Positions 1,277 to 33,510 of a stretch of DNA of 64,000 nt are shown here, piece by piece; the first letter of the stretch is position 1, and every line of letters begins with the position of its first letter. The DNA lies in the NCBI GenBank assembly GCA_032173965.1, contig CM063294.1, positions 7,424,452 to 7,488,451 of the forward strand, read 5' to 3'. This DNA comes from Sitta carolinensis (lineage: Eukaryota > Chordata > Aves > Passeriformes > Sittidae). A program made the translations under genes and the position numbers. The notes under the pieces were generated by a model. The model saw only the letters and a list, made by a program, of their open reading frames with translations, ran no database searches and was not told the DNA's origin.

Positions 1277-1647
1277 CTCAGCACGTGCGTGGAGCCGTTG
1301 ATGGTGGTGGTGGAGCAGGGCACGCTCTGGCCCAGGATGGAGGGCCGGCGGGAGCGCTCGTCGCCGCAGCACAGGATGATGAGGAAGGCACGTCGGAAAG
1401 CCTTGTTGAGGAAGGCGTAGAGGAAAGGGTTCAAGCCCGAGTTGATGTAGCCCAGCCACAGGAAGGCTGTCCACAGCTTGCCAGGCACCGTGTAGTTTAT
1501 GAAGGGATCCACGATGTTGGTGATGAAGAAGGGTGCCCAGCAGAGGCAGAAGCAGCCCATGATGATGCACAGGGTCTTGGCAGCTTTGGTCTCGGTCTTC
1601 ATGCGGTGGGTGCTGTGCTGGTCGGGGCCGTGCTGCTGGGGGGGCTC
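1277..1647 (-). CDS. HTR4: 5-HT4 serotonin receptor, coding exon 6 (TM6, TM7, proximal tail)
   Basis: This exon encodes the end of intracellular loop 3, TM6, TM7 and the proximal C-terminal tail of the Gs-coupled 5-HT4 receptor, a plasma-membrane GPCR. It opens with [16 protein letters not shown], and the human receptor also has DQHSTHRM before TM6. Visible landmarks are the CWAPFF motif of TM6, NPFLY of TM7, a Cys-Cys pair after FLIIL that fits tail palmitoylation, and the conserved [12 protein letters not shown] that ends the common part of all 5-HT4 isoforms. The acceptor is CCCAG at 1648-1652 and the donor is GAG|GTCAGT after 1277, leaving phase 2. Mammalian 5-HT4 switches to alternative C-terminal exons at this point, so the true end lies elsewhere. 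The acceptor's pyrimidine tract is supplied by an LTR. Identity is very secure; the 5' boundary is inferred. Confidence 0.92.
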
Positions 1648-1652
1648 CTGGG
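1647..1652. repeat. Left target-site duplication of the intronic LTR
   Basis: The six bases CCTGGG lie directly before the TG end of the LTR and match CCTGGA at 2325-2330 in five of six positions. Read on the minus strand they form the CCCAG|G acceptor of exon 6. Confidence 0.6.
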
Positions 1653-2324
1653 TGTTGGGGAAGGGTGAAACGGGAAAACCTTATCAATAGGATTGCCTGG
1701 CAAAAGATTTTTGAGAATGTGGAGACTATAAGGGAGATTGGAATGAAAGCAAGCTTTGAGATACCAAGCCTTGGTTATTGAACAACTGGAAAACAATGGG
1801 ATGGCCACTGAAGGCAATCCCCTTCTGATTAAACAATGATCTCTGCCTGCAGACAGCTCCAAGGGGCAGAGCAGACCCCACCAGCCTGGCAGAAGGGCCC
1901 AAAGAGCAGTTTTAGGGTTAAAAATGTACCACAGTATGGTAATGTAATGATTCTTACAGGCTGTATGTAAATGCTATAGGATTTGTATCCTGTACTAGAT
2001 TGGTTGGTGAGAATTAGAATATTCACCACAGAAGGAGATTTATTGCATTGTAACGGGAATTTTGGGCATTCTATCTTTTCTCTTCCAGCATTCTATCTTT
2101 TTCTCTTTCTTGCTCTCTCTCTGGCCTGCTCCAAGCTGTGGCTGGCAGCTCCAAGCAGGCCCCCTGCACCCAACAGTAATAACAGTAACAACAATCTCAA
2201 TAATAACAATAATAACAACAATTGCCCTTTGCAATAAACCGCAACTTGCAAGATTGGCATCAGAGATCTCTGGTCACCGTTTGTCCTGACCATCCATAAT
2301 CCATACCACACTGACCATACCACA
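1653..2324 (+). mobile_element. Solo LTR, family A copy 1, forming intron 5 of HTR4
   Basis: The element starts TGTTGGGG and ends ACCACA. It is closely similar over about 600 bp to a second copy at 10760-11541, and both contain a 'ttgcaataaacc' polyadenylation-type signal near their 3' end. No gag, pol or env is present, so it is a solo LTR. It lies antisense to HTR4 and accounts for all but about six bases of the 678 bp intron between exons 5 and 6. Its 5' end, read on the minus strand, supplies the pyrimidine-rich tract before the exon 6 acceptor. Its last base supplies the T of the exon 5 donor GT. The 5' edge is well supported by the second copy. The 3' edge rests on the CA terminus, the target duplication and the resumption of the minisatellite at 2325. 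Confidence 0.8.
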
Positions 2325-2330
2325 CCTGGA
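2325..2330. repeat. Right target-site duplication of the intronic LTR
   Basis: CCTGGA directly follows the CA end of the LTR and is also the first part of a 21 bp minisatellite unit. On the minus strand it reads TCCAG|G, the exon 5 donor, with the G of GT from the duplication and the T from the LTR. Confidence 0.6.
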
Positions 2331-2797
2331 GGTGCTGCCGTGGCTCCTGGAGGTGCTGCCGTGGCTCCTGGAGGTGCTGCCGTGGCTCCTGGAGGTGCTG
2401 CCGTGGCTCCTGGAGGTGCTGCCGTGGCTCCTGGAGGTGCTGCCGTGGCTCCTGGAGGTGTTGTCTTGTCTCCTGCCGTGTTTCCAGCCGTGGCTCCTGG
2501 AGGTGCTGCCGTGGCTCCAGCCGTGGCTCCTGGCTGTGTTGCCATGTTTCCAGCCATGGTTTCTGGTTGTGTTGCCGTGGTTCCTGGAGGTGTTGCCCTG
2601 GTTCCTGGCTGTGTTGCCCTGGTTCCTGGAGGTGTTGCCGTGTTTCCAGCCATGGCTCCTGGCTGTGTTGCCGTGTTTCCAGCTGTGGTTCCTGGAGGTG
2701 TTGCCCTGGTTCCTGGCTGTGTTGCCCTGGCTCCTGGCTGTGTTGCCATGTCTCCAGCCCTGGCTCCTGGCTGTGTTGCCGTGGCTCCAGCCGTGGC
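2325..2797. repeat. 21 bp coding minisatellite in HTR4 loop 3
   Basis: The proximal part, 2325 to about 2458, is six near-perfect 21 bp units containing 'ggaggtgctgccgtggctcc'. Further along, variant units with 'ggctgtgttgcc', 'ggttcctggctg' and 'tttccagcc' are interspersed. Unit lengths remain multiples of three, so the receptor frame is kept. No frame has stops in either direction, so openness alone is not proof of coding. The homogeneous end lies next to the LTR and looks the most recently amplified. Confidence 0.9.
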
Positions 2798-3000
2798 TCG
2801 CCCGCGTTGCCGGCACGCTGCAGCAGCCGGATCTGGCGCGCGTGTGCCCGCGCCGTCACGTAGATGCGGTGGTAGGCCAGCACCATCAGCAGGAAGGGGA
2901 TGTAGAAAGCCACCACGGAGCAGGTGATGGCATAGGGCTTGTTCACCATGAAGATGCAGTAGGTGGAGTTGGAGGCCTTGTTGAACTGTCTCTGCTGGAT
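2326..3000 (-). CDS. HTR4: 5-HT4 serotonin receptor, coding exon 5 (ECL2, TM5, expanded ICL3)
   Basis: The exon begins [17 protein letters not shown], which carries the conserved extracellular-loop-2 cysteine (residue 184, partner of Cys93) and an Asn-Ser-Thr glycosylation site. TM5 follows ([19 protein letters not shown] and onward), then [21 protein letters not shown]. In human 5-HT4 only about eight residues follow RAG before the segment leading to DQHSTHR. Here 161 codons follow within this exon, nearly all in a degenerate repeat of the type QHLQEPR, ending QHLQ. The acceptor is CCCCAG before 3000 and the donor is CTCCAG|GTGTGG at 2325-2324. Both phases are 0 and join exon 6 in frame. TM5 identity is certain. 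The use of the far donor is inferred from phase and from repeat continuity with EPPQQHG in exon 6; nearer donors were considered and rejected. Confidence 0.85.
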
Positions 3001-3084: not shown

Positions 3085-3197
3085 TACTCCCTGTCACTCT
3101 GCACTAGACCAGGGTGCTCCAAGCCCCATCCAGCCATGCTGGGACATTTGGACACATCCACCCCTCCCAGGGCATCCTGTGCCAGAGCCTCACCTCC
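3085..3197. mobile_element. CR1-type LINE fragment
   Basis: The phrases 'gaccagggtgctccaagcc', 'gccccatccagcc' and 'ctcacctccctcacaggg' follow the order of the 3' part of avian CR1 elements. The fragment leads directly into the minisatellite at 3198-4632, whose unit is the next piece of the same CR1 sequence. Confidence 0.65.
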
Positions 3198-4632
3198 CTC
3201 ACAGGGAAGGATTTTTCCCTGGAGCCCATCTAACCCTGCCCTCTGGGAAGGATTTTTCCCTGGAGCCCATCTAACCCTGCCCTCACAGGGAAGGACTTTC
3301 CCTGGAGCCCATCTAACCCTGCCCTCACAGGGAAGGATTTTTCCCTGGAGCCCATCTAACCCTGCCCTCTGGGAAGGATTTTTCCCTGAATCCCATCTAA
3401 CCCTGCACTCACAGGGAAGGATTTTTCCCTGGAGCCCATCTAACCCTGCACTCTGGGAAGGATTTTTCCCTGGAGCCCATCTAACCCTGCACTCACAGGG
3501 AAGGACTTTTCCCTGGAGCCCATCTAACCCTGCCCTCTGGGAAGGATTTTTCCCTGGAGCCCATCTAACCCTGCCCTCACAGGGAAGGATTTTTCCCTGA
3601 ATCCCATCTAACCCTGCCCTCACAGGGAAGGATTTTTCCCTGGAGCCCATCTAACCCTGCACTCACAGGGAAGGACTTTTCCCTGGAGCCCATCTAACCC
3701 TGCCCTCACAGGGAAGGATTTTTCCCTGGAGCCCATCTAACCCTGCCCTCTGGGAAGGATTTTTCCCTGAATCCCATCTAACCCTGCACTCACAGGGAAG
3801 GATTTTTCCCTGGAGCCCATCTAACCCTGCACTCTGGGAAGGATTTTTCCCTGGAGCCCATCTAACCCTGCACTCACAGGGAAGGACTTTTCCCTGGAGC
3901 CCATCTAACCCTGCCCTCTGGGAAGGATTTTTCCCTGGAGCCCATCTAACCCTGCCCTCACAGGGAAGGATTTTTCCCTGGAGCCCATCTAACCCTGCAC
4001 TCACAGGGAAGGACTTTTCCCTGGAGCCCATCTAACCCTGCCCTCACAGGGAAGGATTTTTCCCTGGAGCCCATCTAACCCTGCCCTCTGGGAAGGATTT
4101 TTCCCTGAATCCCATCTAACCCTGCACTCAGAGGGAAGGACTTTTCCCTGGAGCCCATCTAACCCTGCCCTCTGGGAAGGATTTTTCCCTGGAGCCCATC
4201 TAACCCTGCCCTCTGGGAAGGATTTTTCCCTGGAGCCCATCTAACCCTGCCCTCTGGGAAGGATTTTTCCCTGGAGCCCATCTAACCCTGCCCTCTGGGA
4301 AGGATTTTTCCCTGGAGCCCATCTAACCCTGCCCTCTGGGAAGGATTTTTCCCTGAATCCCATCTAACCCTGCACTCACAGGGAAGGATTTTTCCCTGGA
4401 GCCCATCTAACCCTGCCCTCTGGGAAGGATTTTTCCCTGAATCCCATCTAACCCTGCACTCACAGGGAAGGAATTTTCCCTGGAGCCCATCTAACCCTGC
4501 CCTCTGGGAAGGATTTTTCCCTGGAGCCCATCTAACCCTGCACTCACAGGGAAGGATTTTTCCCTGGAGCCCATCTAACCCTGCCCTCACAGGGAAGGAT
4601 TTTTCCCTGGAGCCCATCTAACCCTGCCCTCT
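3198..4632. repeat. ~40 bp intronic minisatellite derived from CR1
   Basis: About 35 tandem units occupy intron 4 of HTR4, between exons 5 and 4. The unit contains 'gggaaggatttttccctg', 'agcccatctaacc' and 'ctgccct', in variants of roughly 41 and 43 bp that differ by 'ctctggg' versus 'ctcacaggg'. Because 41 and 43 are not multiples of three, open frames here cycle through phases and encode nothing. Each unit contains a short imperfect palindrome, 'gggaaggatttttccc'. Confidence 0.92.
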
Positions 4633-5048: not shown

Positions 5049-5202
5049 CAGATCAATGATGCCAATGCTGTTCCAGCCTTGCATGATAGGGAGGAAAGAA
5101 ATGAATGTTGGGATCACCCAGCAGCCTCCCAGCATCACGGCGATGCGCAGCGGCGTCATCTTGTTCCTGTACACCAGGGGCTGGCAGCAGATGGCATAGT
5201 AC
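5049..5202 (-). CDS. HTR4: 5-HT4 serotonin receptor, coding exon 4 (TM4)
   Basis: The exon supplies the last base of the Arg of the DRY motif, then [22 protein letters not shown]4 ([20 protein letters not shown]) and [11 protein letters not shown] at the start of extracellular loop 2. This matches 5-HT4 receptors almost residue for residue (human GWNNIGIIDL). The acceptor is CCCTGCAG just upstream of 5202 and the donor is CTG|GTGAGT at 5048. It enters in phase 2 and leaves in phase 0. The intron on its 3' side is where a small extra loop-2 exon is inserted in some human 5-HT4 isoforms; I saw no convincing counterpart here. Confidence 0.95.
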
Positions 5203-10759: not shown

Positions 10760-11541
10760 TGTTGGGGAGGATGAAACAGGAAAACCTCATAAATAGGATT
10801 GCTGGCAAAAGATTTTGAGAATGTGGAAACTATAAGGGAGATAGGAATGAAAGCAAGCTTGGAGATACCAAGCCTTGGTTATTGAACAACTGGAAAACAA
10901 TGGGATGGCCACTGAAGGCAATCCCCTTCTGATTAAACAATGATCTCTGCCTGCAGACAGCTCCAAGGGGCAGAGCAGACCCCACCAGCCTGGCAGAAGG
11001 GGCCCAAAGAGCAGTTTTAGGGTTAAAAATGTACCACAGTATGGTAATGTAATGATTCTTACAGGCTGTATGTAAATGCTATAGGATTTGTATCCTGTAC
11101 TAGGATTGGTTGGTGAGAATTAAAATATTCAGCAAGGAAGATTTATGGTATTGCAATGGGAACTTTCTCTCTCTCTCTTTCTCTCTTTCAAACCTGCTCC
11201 GAGCTGTGCTGGCAGCTCCAATTTTATATATATTATAAAATATATATGAGATATATATATATATATAGATAGATAGATAATATAGATATAGTATATAGAT
11301 ATAGATATAGATATAGATATAGATATAATATTTATAAAATATATATGATATATATATAACATATATATTATAATATTCACAACAATTATTATGTATATAT
11401 AATAATTGTTCTATTATGATAACAATAATAACAATATAACAATAATAACAATAATTGCCCTTTGCAATAAACCACAAGTTCCAAGTCCTGGTGTCAAAGA
11501 TCTCTCATCTCTGTCCATCCTGACCACCCAACCCACCATCA
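10760..11541 (+). mobile_element. Solo LTR, family A copy 2
   Basis: It starts TGTTGGGGAGG and is closely similar to 1653-2324 through to a 'ttgcaataaacc' signal and the terminal 'catcctgaccaccca'. It sits in intron 3 of HTR4 in the same orientation as copy 1, antisense to the gene. It is longer because of an AT-rich expansion at 11219-11420. The right edge is approximate and I found no clear target duplication. Confidence 0.8.
11219..11420. repeat. TA/TATAGA microsatellite inside the LTR
   Basis: Runs of TATATA and (TAGATA)n interrupt the LTR where copy 1 has only a short 'aataacaataataac' stretch downstream. This looks like expansion after insertion. The Ile/Tyr-rich frames on the minus strand come from this tract. 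Confidence 0.9.
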
Positions 11542-14520: not shown

Positions 14521-14635
14521 GGCCAGTGCTGCCAACGGAGCTGTGCACAGAACAACCCTCACCATCAATCTCATCCCATTCCAAGTTTTTCTGCCTTCAA
14601 TCTCTCCAAAATCAGCCACTGGGAAAGACTTCTGG

Positions 14636-15015
14636 CTCTGCCATTCCAGGCAGGTCCCTCTTTGCAATTCCTGGCTCTGCCATTCCAGGCAGGTCCATCT
14701 TCGCAATTCCTGGCTCTGCTATTCCGGGCAGGTCCATCTTTGCAATTTTAGGCTCTGCCATTCCAGGCAGGTCCATCTTTGCAATTTTAGGCTCTGCCAT
14801 TCCAGGCAGGTCCATCTTTGGAATTTTAGGCTCTGCCATTCCAGGCAGGTCCATCTTTGCAGTTCCTGGCTCTGCCATTCCAGGCAGGTCCATCTTTATG
14901 GTGTCTGGCTCTACCATTCCAGGCAGGTCCCTCTTTGCAATTCCTGGCTCTGCCATTCCAGGCAGGTCCATCTTTGCAATTCCTGGCTGGGCCATTCCAG
15001 GCAGGTCCCCCTTTG
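14636..15015. repeat. 39 bp minisatellite next to exon 3
   Basis: About ten 39 bp units contain 'ggctctgccattccaggc', 'aggtccatctttgcaatt'. The length is exactly 13 codons, so a long frame of GSAIPGRSIFAIP repeats is open on the plus strand and a related one on the minus strand. Neither has a start context or domain. The array ends about 70 bp before the exon 3 donor. Confidence 0.92.
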
Positions 15016-15084
15016 CCCTCTGGCAGCCCAGGATAACCAAGAGCCCAGCAGAGCCTTCAAGCAGTGTCCCTGGCCAGCTCCTAC

Positions 15085-15285
15085 CTGTCCAGGGAGATGC
15101 AGCAGAGGTGCAGGATGGATGCTGTGGTCAGCAGCACGTCCAGGGAGGTCCTCACCAGGCAGAACATCTCACCATAGATCCAGTTGTCCTGAACCAGCTC
15201 GATGGCTCCAAAGGGCATCACCAGCACCGACACCAGCAGGTCAGCAAAGGCCAGGGAAACAATGAAATAGTTGGTCTTGATTTTC
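15085..15285 (-). CDS. HTR4: 5-HT4 serotonin receptor, coding exon 3 (TM2-TM3)
   Basis: The exon encodes [20 protein letters not shown] (TM2 with Asp66), extracellular loop 1 with Trp86, Cys93 for the loop-2 disulfide, and TM3 with Asp100 in [11 protein letters not shown], the residue that binds the serotonin amine in this family. It ends CISLDR, the start of the DRY motif completed by exon 4. The acceptor is CTCGCAG before 15285 and the donor is GACAG|GTAG at 15084. Both phases are 2. Numbering from the proposed start codon puts Asp100 exactly where it is in the human protein, which supports the assembled upstream exons. Confidence 0.95.
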
Positions 15286-16479
15286 CTGCGAGGCAGATCA
15301 CAAAATTAGGGTGGGTTCAGTGCAGCAGCCTCCACACGTGGGCAGAGGTTCAGCTGGAATTTGGGTTTAATCTGCTCCATCACCCTGAAAGCTCCTTGCT
15401 GACACACTCCTCATGTTTTATGGTCGCCCCTGGCTTGCTCCTGGAATTTAAAGGGAAATATCCACCATTTTCCTGGCCTAAACACATCTTTCTGCTCACC
15501 CAGAGGAGGCAAATGGATGCTCACAGACCTCTGCATGTGGCTCAGCCTCACATCTTGCACTGGAGACTCTGGGGTGGAGGAGGGGGAATTTTATTTTAAC
15601 TTGTAAATGGAGAAAATCCTTCCAGAAAGCACTGAGAATAATCTAGACTGAAGCTGTAATTTTAACTTGAAGAGTACTTTTTAAATCACAACAATAAAAT
15701 AGAATTAAATCCATTAAAAATCCCACGCAGCACATGAATAGAGGCTGTTAAATCTCTCCCTCTGCTCCTAAGGCTGGGCTGACAATTCCCAGGGTTAGCA
15801 GCAGCCTTGAGACAGGAATTGTGCCCGTGACCCCCTCAAATCATGGGCAACATTTGCTAACTTGTGCTGGTGCTGCCCAATCACAAGGAGCCCTTGCTCT
15901 GGGTGCTGCTGCTAAGCTCATTGGGAAATCTGAGCTGGAAAAGGAGCAGAGGCCACCCTGGCTCTCCAGGGAATTGCTGCTCTGCTGTGCTTTTCACGTG
16001 TTTGTCTGCTTTTCTACACTGAGAACTTCTCAACGCTGAAATTTTTTCTGCACTCCAAAGGTGAGGATGGGAATTGCAATTTGGGATGAGCCAGGGGCAG
16101 AGCAGGTGTGCAGGGCAGGGAAAGCTCAGCTTGGGCTGCAGTGGCAGCTGGGAGCAGAGCTGGGAGTTCTGTCCGCAGTGCTGGAAGCGGGCTGGGGCTG
16201 GGGAGATGCTCTGCTCCTGGCAGCTGTTCAATCCAGCTGGTCAGTTTGCTTCAGCCCTGCCAGGACCCAGCCTCAGCCAGGAGAGAGCTTCTGCTCAGGG
16301 GCCACTGAGTCTCATTGCATGGCTGAGAAAATTCCATCAGCCCATGGCACAGGCTGCACCCAGCATTCCTGCCTGGCTACAAGCTGGGATTTGGCACACC
16401 AGGGCTGCCTTTCCCTGCATCCCCAGAGGAACACCCGGCCCAGGGATCCCCACTGGAGCTGCAGAGGGAATCTGCCCCT
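15286..16479. other. Intron 2, 5' of the 41 bp array
   Basis: No exon or clear transposon is visible. The long open frame covering 15286-15599 belongs to the 39 bp repeat readthrough and is not a gene. Confidence 0.5.
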
Positions 16480-16930
16480 TCCTGCAGGATCCCTGCCCCA
16501 GCACAGCCCCCTGTGCCCCTTCCTGCAGGATCCCTGCCCCAGCACAGCCCCCTGTGACCCTTCCTGCAGGATCCCTGCCCCAGCACAGCCCCCTGTGCCC
16601 CTTCCTGCAGGATCCCTGCCCCAGCACAGCCCCCTCTGCCCCTTCCTGCAGGATCCCTGCCCCAGCACAGCCCCCTCTGCCCCTTCCTGCAGGATCCCTG
16701 CCCCAGCACAGCCCCCTCTGCCCCTTCCTGCAGGATCCCTGCCCCAGCACAGCCCCCTCTGCCCCTTCCTGCAGGATCCCTGCCCCAGCACAGCCCCCTC
16801 TGCCCCTTCCTGCAGGATCCCTGCCCCAGCACAGCCCCCTCTGCCCCTTCCTGCAGGATCCCTGCCCCAGCACAGCCCCCTGTGCCCCTTCCTGCAGGAT
16901 CCCTGCCCCAGCACAGCCCCTCTGCCCCTG
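16480..16930. repeat. 41 bp minisatellite
   Basis: Eleven or so near-identical units contain 'ccttcctgcaggatccctgc' and 'cccagcacagccccct'. Because 41 is not a multiple of three, each long frame rotates through three peptide versions (CPFLQDPCPSTAP, then SAPSCRIPAPAQPP, then LPLPAGSLPQHSP). All six frames lack stops, so the 200-330 codon open frames here are artefacts. Confidence 0.95.
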
Positions 16931-17237: not shown

Positions 17238-17363
17238 CTGAGCTGCCTGTCCCTGCACACGGCCACCATGACCAGCAGGTTGCCCAGGATGGCCATCAGG
17301 ATGACGGCAGAGATGAAGGAGAGCAGCAGGATCTTCTGGGCCACGCCGATGCCCTCGCTGGAA
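17238..17363 (-). CDS. HTR4: 5-HT4 serotonin receptor, coding exon 2 (TM1)
   Basis: The exon encodes the end of the extracellular N-terminus and TM1: [16 protein letters not shown], then [19 protein letters not shown] and CRDRQLR. Asn in GNLL is the conserved TM1 asparagine. Human 5-HT4 has GFGSVEKVVLLTF and CWDRQLR, so the Trp of CWD is Arg here. The acceptor is TTTGCTCCCTCCCAG before 17363 and the donor is CTCAG|GTGAGC at 17237. Entry and exit phases are 2, and the first base completes a Ser codon begun in exon 1. Confidence 0.94.
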
Positions 17364-29247: not shown

Positions 29248-29273
29248 CTCACATTCACATCAAGTTCTTCCAT
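29248..29273 (-). CDS. HTR4: 5-HT4 serotonin receptor, coding exon 1 (start codon)
   Basis: This 26-base coding segment reads MEELDVNV plus the AG of a Ser codon, ending at a donor AG|GTAGGA. Human 5-HT4 begins MDKLDANVS, so five of the first eight residues match, including LD and NV, and the N-V-S glycosylation site is recreated across the splice junction. Phase 2 matches exon 2. The start context is GTGATGG, with G at -3 and +4. From this start, Asp100 and Cys184 fall at the human positions. It is too short to appear as an open frame and was found by searching the minus strand for the expected N-terminus. Confidence 0.85.
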
Positions 29274-31904: not shown

Positions 31905-33510
31905 GCTGCACTGGTGGCACTGGGAATTCAGGAATGCCCCAGCTGAGCTCACCTGGCACACTGGGAATTCAGGAATGACCTGACTGTGCTCAGCTGGCAC
32001 ACTGGGAATCAGGAATGACCTACTGAGCTCACCTGGTGCACACTGGGAATTCAGGAATGCCCAAGCTGAGCTCACCTGGCACACTGGGAATTCAGGAATG
32101 ACCTGACTGAGCTCACCTGGCACACTGGGAATTCAGGAATGCCCCAGCTGAGCTCATCTGGCACACTGGGAATTCAGGAATGACCTGACTGAGCTCAGCT
32201 GGCACACTGGGAATTCAGGAATGCCCCAGCTGAGCTCACCTGGTGGCACACTGGGAATTCAGGAATGCCCCAGCTGAGCTCACCTGGCACACTGGGAATT
32301 CAGGAATGACCTGACTGAGCTCACCTGGTGGCACACTGGGAATTCAGGAATGCCCAAGCTGAGCTCACCTGGTGGCACACTGGGAATTCAGGAATGCCCG
32401 GCTGAGCTCACCTGGTGGCACACTGGGAATTCAGGAATGACCTGACTGAGCTCACCTGGTGGCACACTGGGAATTCAGGAATGACCTGACTGAGCTCACC
32501 TGGTGGCACACTGGGAATTCAGGAATGACCTGACTGAGCTCACCTGGTGGCACACTGGGAATTCAGGAATGCCCAAGCTGAGCTCACCTGGTGGCACACT
32601 GGGAATTCAGGAATGCCCCGCTGAGCTCACCTGGTGGCACACTGGGAATTCAGGAATGCCCCGGCTGAGCTCACCTGGTGGCACACTGGGAATTCAGGAA
32701 TGCCCAAGCTGAGCTCACCTGGTGGCACACTGGGAATTCAGGAATGCCCCGACTGAGCTCACCTGGTGGCACACTGGGAATTCAGGAATGCCCCGGCTGA
32801 GCTCACCTGGTGGCACACTGGGAATTCAGGAATGCCCCGGCTGAGCTCACCTGGTGGCACACTGGGAATTCAGGAATGACCTGACTGAGCTCACCTGGTG
32901 GCACACTGGGAATTCAGGAATGCCCAAGCTGAGCTCACCTGGTGGCACACTGGGAATTCAGGAATGCCCAAGCTGAGCTCACCTGGTGGCACACTGGGAA
33001 TTCAGGAATGCCCGCTGAGCTCACCTGGTGGCACACTGGGAATTCAGGAATGCCCAAGCTGAGCTCACTGGTGGCACACTGGGAATTCAGGAATGACCTG
33101 ACTGAGCTCACCTAGTGGCACACTGGGAATTCAGGAATGCCCGGCTGAGCTCACCTGGTGGCACACTGGGAATTCAGGAATGACCTGACTGAGCTCACCT
33201 GGTGGCACACTGGGAATTCAGGAATGCCCCGCTGAGCTCACCTGGTGGCACACTGGGAATTCAGGAATGACCTGACTGAGCTCACCTGTGGCACACTGGG
33301 AATTCAGGAATGCCCCGCTGAGCTCACCTGGTGGCACACTGGGAATTCAGGAATGAACTGGCTGAGCTCACCTGGTGGCACACTGGGAATTCAGGAATGA
33401 ACTGGCTGAGCTCACCTGGTGGCACACTGGGAATTCAGGAATGCCCCGGCTGAGCTCACCTGGTGGCACACTGGGAATTCAGGAATGCCCCGGCTGAGCT
33501 CACCTGGCAC
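31905..33510. repeat. ~44 bp minisatellite, 1.6 kb
   Basis: Roughly 36 units contain 'ggtggcacactgggaattc', 'aggaatgccc' and 'gctgagctcacct'. Three main unit types alternate ('gaatgacctgactgagctc', 'gaatgcccaagctgagctc' and 'gaatgccccggctgagctc'). Early units lack the 'ggtgg' and are shorter. Every unit carries GAATTC and GAGCTC, so EcoRI or SacI digestion would collapse the array. Confidence 0.96.

Follow-up and report, generated by a model that had tools for sequence, protein, structure and literature searches.

What becomes of a receptor gene when a long terminal repeat (LTR) sits in the middle of one of its coding exons? This question is raised by HTR4 of Sitta carolinensis, which lies on the minus strand of a 64,000-nucleotide stretch of DNA (hereafter the window; C19:7424452-7488451 of the 1.03-Gb genome) and whose last common coding exon, running from 3000 to 1277, is broken by a solo LTR. 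A sequence-only reading of the same stretch had left two options, namely that an intron was born here or that the LTR replaced an older intron. As we argue below, birth of an intron by LTR insertion is quite probably the best explanation.

The split exon and the LTR in it

Among solved structures, human 5-HT4 is the best match to both parts of the split exon, with E values of 3.3e-27 for the TM5 part and 1.7e-74 for the part from TM6 to L358. The common coding region of HTR4 is complete in the window, with five blocks if the split exon is counted once (Table 1). Tail exons lie downstream, two of them outside the window, with 20/20 and 27/28 residues matching, and there is also ANSWKC for VNSWKC. 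No second HTR4 that could act as a backup copy was found in the assembly: five candidates were obtained and all five scored, and the other four are partial matches of 67-80%, presumably paralogs.

Table 1. Positions in the window of the HTR4 exons, the proposed intron and the repeats around it (a slash marks a splice junction).
Feature	Position	Strand	Remarks
HTR4 first coding exon	29248..29273	-	MEELDVNV + 2 bases
HTR4 coding exon	17238..17363	-	TM1
HTR4 coding exon	15085..15285	-	TM2-TM3
HTR4 coding exon	5049..5202	-	TM4 region
HTR4 last common coding exon, 5' part	2326..3000	-	TM5 + loop 3
HTR4 last common coding exon, 3' part	1277..1647	-	loop 3 end, TM6, TM7 to L358 equivalent; donor AG/GTCAGT
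Proposed LTR-born GT-AG phase-0 intron, 678 nt	1648..2325	-	exact frame restoration; donor/acceptor ranking
Candidate 3' splice region	1648..1690	-	pyrimidine tract 16/20, branch-like motifs, AG-free 30 nt
Solo LTR, multicopy endogenous-retrovirus-like family	1653..2324	+	TGTTGG...CCACA, antisense to HTR4; family copies, TG...CA ends
Left target duplication	1647..1652		CCTGGG; holds acceptor AG (minus strand CCCAG/G)
Right target duplication	2325..2330		CCTGGA; first base = G of donor GT on minus strand (CTCCAG/G)
Coding minisatellite of HTR4 loop 3	2325..2800	-	21-, 33-, 12-bp units, QHLQEPR-type
Second LTR of the same family	10760..11530	+	in HTR4 intron; 11530 = last matched base, not mapped end
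Near-identical 261-bp LTR tract	1758-2018 and about 10860-11125		also in copies L009, L010

The inserted element had been described as a 672-bp solo LTR with TG...CA ends between CCTGGG and CCTGGA, and all coordinates of this description proved exact. Its flanks form a 6-bp target duplication with 5/6 bases identical, of which the left one is probably the copy that changed, since the repeat units beside the LTR read CCTGGA. As the flanks lie in or at a CCTGG-rich repeat, a chance partial match is somewhat likelier here than elsewhere. When the LTR was compared by BLAST with the 1.03-Gb genome, 64 matched pieces came from the 40 candidates scored out of 324; within this sample the family has many dispersed copies, whose main pieces are 82-89% identical to the LTR, besides the HTR4 copy itself (100%) and the second copy in the same gene (93%). 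Thirty-nine other copies were fetched. In an automatic end scan a flank pair was readable in 34 of the 40 aligned copies: 11 match at 6/6, 10 (the HTR4 copy included) at 5/6, three have a perfect 5 and 10 are poor. Flanks that match at 5 or 6 of 6 bases, and thus form a duplication of family-typical length, are seen in 21/34 copies, some of these matches possibly being due to chance as the scan tried several offsets. The family scan also favours the LTR start TGTTGG with 6-bp duplications, and the alternative start TGTGTT was rejected. One 30-base exact pattern from the LTR gave no match in viral contigs.

The coding minisatellite of loop 3 adjoins the right end of the LTR, as had been noticed before. 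On the gene strand, its stretch 2331-2800 has no GT at all and AGG is frequent (22/475 positions of the minisatellite). All unit lengths found are multiples of 3, and the loop-3 insert reaches 169 residues here as compared with 31-155 in the 27 fetched proteins listed, being short in goose, turtle and the antbird Willisornis. One protein, P0179, apparently from another passerine, has an unrelated 18-residue leader directly before the loop-3 repeat, which is either a second insertion in loop 3 of another bird or an assembly artefact; a search for this leader in the window gave no match. Large minisatellites also occur at 3196-4631, 14632-15016, 16471-16929 and 31911-33507, with units of 43, 39, 41 and 44 bp, respectively, and copies of the 41-bp unit are 98% alike.

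Candidate splice signals at the edges of the LTR

If the LTR is removed as an intron, which splice sites would it use? On the minus strand the donor edge reads CTCCAG/GTGTGG and the acceptor edge CCCCAACACCCAG/GAGCCC (equally TTTCACCCTTCCCCAACACCCAG/GAG). The junctions proposed before, TCCAG/GTGTGG for the donor and AG/G at the acceptor edge, are both read in the sequence, and so is their proposed composition: the GT of the donor consists of the last base of one duplication and the first base of the LTR, and the AG of the acceptor lies in the other duplication. The proposed intron equals the LTR plus one target copy. Its removal joins Q and E and restores the coding sequence and, as had also been claimed, the frame, which together with the other coding exons is a single one of 517 codons. 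Read unspliced into the LTR, the same frame meets a stop after 21 codons.

The U1 and branch motifs used for scoring are general knowledge. By computed U1 pairing, the candidate donor is second among the 45 GTs from 2999 to 1641, the top rank being taken by CTG/GTGGGG at 1881 inside the LTR (-7.8). Its pairing of -7.1 is weaker than that of three of the four further HTR4 donors that were scored (-11.1, -10.7, -8.9 and -6.3), a set without the donor of the first coding exon. The candidate acceptor ties for the most pyrimidines among 56 AGs, with 16/20, while three normal acceptors of the gene have 13, 13 and 17; on the gene strand of window 3100-64000, 101 of 4937 AGs reach this count. Branch-like motifs are TTCAC, with its A at -19 (about 1666), and TTGAT, with its A at -37 (about 1684). 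The features of a U2-type intron, GT...AG, donor, pyrimidine tract and branch-like site, are therefore all present in the sequence. The pyrimidine tract appears to be a trait of the LTR family, because the second LTR has the same pyrimidine-rich edge (21 of the last 30 bases, equal to the HTR4 LTR) and the aligned 5' ends of other copies look alike. In the opposite orientation the LTR would offer 12/20 pyrimidines instead of 16.

How might such signals have come together? A retrovirus-like element would have entered the coding repeat of loop 3 in antisense orientation at the gene-strand target TCCAGG, these 6 bp would have been duplicated, and the element would then have been reduced to a solo LTR. 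The last G of the target and the terminal T of the LTR would make up the donor CAG/GTGTGG, the acceptor AG would come from the second copy of the target, and the pyrimidine tract and branch site from the antisense reading of the LTR's purine-rich 5' edge. The spliceosome would most likely remove 1648-2325 from most HTR4 transcripts, and full-length receptor would be made. LTRs begin with TG and end with CA, and for this reason a duplicated target ending in AG/G gives an exactly removable GT-AG intron. This TG rule may well hold in general, to judge from the anatomy of the HTR4 insertion. In the joined coding sequence without the first coding exon, 35/1515 positions (2.3%) end in AGG and would allow exact removal of a TG...CA element. 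The use of the splice sites and its efficiency, as well as the age of the LTR and its fixation in the species, are what we infer from the DNA.

The LTR might instead be spliced mostly via other sites, for example the in-frame AGs 12 and 15 nt downstream, or be spliced in part so that the dose of receptor is regulated. We give a modest chance to this possibility, which overlaps with the main explanation: GAGCCCCCCCAG/CAG comes directly after the candidate acceptor with the frame kept, and the candidate donor is only moderate, but the AG at 1648 is the first to be met after 30 nt free of AG, and none of the 56 AGs exceeds it in pyrimidines.

Age, constraint and ancestral state

Is this proposed intron young? 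Trees were built of 39 and of 40 copies; in them the terminal branch of the HTR4 LTR is 0.075 without the second LTR (median 0.047) or 0.066 with it (median 0.050). Split by region, it rises to 0.155 over bases 1-105 and 367-520 taken together (median 0.074) and to 0.123 over 1-105 and 572-646, which lie clear of the converted tract and of low-complexity sequence (median 0.071). Over bases 106-366 it falls to about 0 (median 0.016), since this tract is shared by three C19 copies. Four C19 copies within 0.63 Mb (HTR4, L020, L009 and L010) are 0-1.5% apart over this tract of 261 bp, where each of them is at least 5% from the 36 others, while the same four are 6-15% apart over bases 1-105. Such a pattern suggests that interlocus gene conversion among neighbouring C19 LTRs likely took place after the insertion, which fits an old LTR; alternatively, the elements may be mosaics inserted more recently. 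Dated by the 261-bp tract, the insertion would be young. Outside the tract the HTR4 LTR and the second LTR differ by about 12% (bases 1-105) to 32%. Songbird rates are 2-3.5e-9 per site per year, and a divergence of 0.07 would correspond to about 20-35 million years with a large error; closer copies beyond the 40 of 324 candidates scored would make this age younger. The insertion thus seems old by its divergence outside the converted tract, with an age that is not firm. The intron had earlier been called newly formed. It does look like one new to the lineage, yet not like a recent private insertion, since the LTR beyond the converted tract exceeds the median divergence of its sister copies.

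What has happened to the coding sequence behind the LTR? For the 115 residues after it (TM6-L358), 36 sequences were picked, and 34 remained after Lamprotornis and Chelonoidis were dropped as the motif was missing. Three residues of the sequence in the window differ from the nearest passerines, with no change at any position invariant in the other 34 sequences. The I at residue 34 is shared, among the passerines compared, only by the Sitta protein, and also by the tinamou; at Y91S the residue is Y in most of the 34 and differs also in Sitta, Malurus and Sylvietta. In a simulation without constraint (and without indels), three or fewer changes had P 0.0635 at a divergence of 0.03 and 0.0008 at 0.05, and were seen in 0/4000 runs at 0.07; at 0.01-0.02 an intact downstream exon is no surprise. 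If the age of the unconverted part holds, the second half of the receptor, having been kept over the age of the LTR, must be read across it, and splicing would be the plain way. Efficient splicing of the LTR is likely the best explanation of intact TM6-TM7 and tail exons in a genome where no second HTR4 was found.

A less favourable view is that the LTR is a disruptive, unspliced insertion, which leaves a truncated receptor or is a rare allele in the sequenced bird. The in-frame stop after 21 codons speaks for it, and so does an AATAAA on the gene strand of the LTR (2039-2044, minus strand; 282 nt from the donor and followed by TGTGGTG), a possible premature polyadenylation site that could truncate transcripts. 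The near-identical 261-bp tract would also fit a young insertion if it did not come from gene conversion. However, the LTR outside this tract has diverged further than the median copy of its family, downstream and tail exons are intact with no other HTR4 found, and an exact AG/G target is to be expected at no more than 2-5% of positions. We consider this view unlikely. An assembly error that placed the LTR in the exon is very improbable: the second LTR 9 kb away in HTR4 with its near-identical 261-bp tract might invite one, but the LTR has full-length ends and a target duplication, the two HTR4 LTRs are about 12% to 32% apart outside the tract, and the contig is 18.4 Mb long.

There remains the ancestral state of the exon. 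Protein searches (the best 120 of 1017 matches, 24 matches, and the best 120 of 131) gave 240 distinct proteins. Under a strict filter, a frame had to lack TM1-TM4, to start with a leader that is not receptor sequence and whose last residue before the exon is Q, and to run through TM5, loop 3, TM6 and TM7. Twenty-six frames pass, 25 from assembled contigs (lgn or ena) and one being an annotated protein (P0166); another 26 fail, mostly starting at or inside the exon. We read the filtered frames as genomic exons, because F, L, S and P are often abundant in their leaders, which so resemble translated pyrimidine tracts. By their residues they belong to fish, mammals, and birds or other sauropsids (P0122, P0123), and one of them, P0121, is passerine by its long loop-3 repeat. 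Loop 3 is read through unbroken in 26/26, including the 25 genomic frames from other vertebrates. The common region of human HTR4 comprises exons 2-6, to L358, in the excerpted text of PMC5665867, that is, five exons, the same number as here with the split exon counted once. The site thus appears intronless in the relatives examined. The protein of Sitta europaea shares 19 residues across the junction, and its DNA may be unbroken or have been spliced by a predictor. Annotated passerine proteins that skip part of loop 3 (e.g. P0130, P0135 and P0139-P0143) were excluded as intron evidence, since they look like gene-prediction artefacts that fit a short reference.

That the LTR lies inside, or replaced, an older intron has scarcely any weight left. 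Any intron could lie at a phase-0 position, but the exon is unbroken in the 25 genomic frames, one of them with the same kind of passerine repeat, and the five human common exons of PMC5665867, as excerpted, equal the five blocks here. Of the two options that the sequence-only reading had kept, replacement is thereby contradicted, and the phase-0 intron in other vertebrates that it had named as evidence against intron birth is found in none of these frames. Intron birth has good indirect support from the frame, the splice signals, the conserved downstream and tail exons and the single copy found, and would be the option that stands.

HTR4 among known routes of intron gain

Retrotransposon 412 sits in the vermilion gene of Drosophila (Fridell et al. 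1990, as cited in PMC2586383), reportedly in a mutant allele of the fly; the HTR4 insertion, unlike it, is a solo LTR, and the gene that it has entered is the single HTR4 copy found in the genome of a bird. Insertion of transposons into AGGT is a known route of intron gain, and Table 1 of the review (PMC3443670), as excerpted, listed in 2012 35 such events in Oryza, Drosophila, Oikopleura and Zea and none in a vertebrate. As in those insertions, the proposed splice sites in HTR4 come from the target duplication, and the original coding sequence is regained exactly on removal; unlike them, the target needs AG/G only, and the terminal T of the LTR completes the GT (PMC3443670, same excerpt). Introners also are mobile DNA taking one splice site from the target duplication, but their families make many similar introns per genome, whereas one intron is proposed in HTR4; in the excerpt of that paper vertebrates show no pattern of gain by Introners according to the authors, and the word LTR does not occur (PMC9860276). 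Another known case is that of the novel introns in GPCR genes of ray-finned fish, some of them in the TM5-TM6 loop and largely at proto-splice sites. These, like HTR4, are intron gains in vertebrate GPCRs; in the available part of the paper they come without a named inserting element with target duplication, unlike HTR4, and repeats are given for medaka and stickleback and none for pufferfish (PMC3151243). In human LTR exonization, too, the splicing machinery uses LTR sequence, but there, according to the excerpt, the LTR becomes an exon, while in HTR4 it would become an intron (PMC2008291). In the open-licence literature, as judged by titles and abstract openings for the terms used, no intron born from an LTR was found in a coding exon of a vertebrate. 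In genome-wide studies vertebrates were found to gain introns extremely rarely, as the excerpt of PMC3257199 puts it, and that paper itself argues for intron gains in domesticated genes.

Mechanisms of intron gain are seldom visible. In HTR4, a receptor of known pharmacology, the element, its target duplication, the ancestral state and the split donor can all be read, and for this reason the proposed birth of an intron can be tested base by base. The case also yields a searchable rule for finding other LTR-born introns. We lean towards seeing here a vertebrate coding exon that has acquired an intron from an LTR, one that has been fixed for millions of years and shows the TG rule. More introns of this kind would then be expected in bird genomes, since the TG rule is joined by a pyrimidine tract and a branch site that this LTR family would offer whenever it is read antisense.
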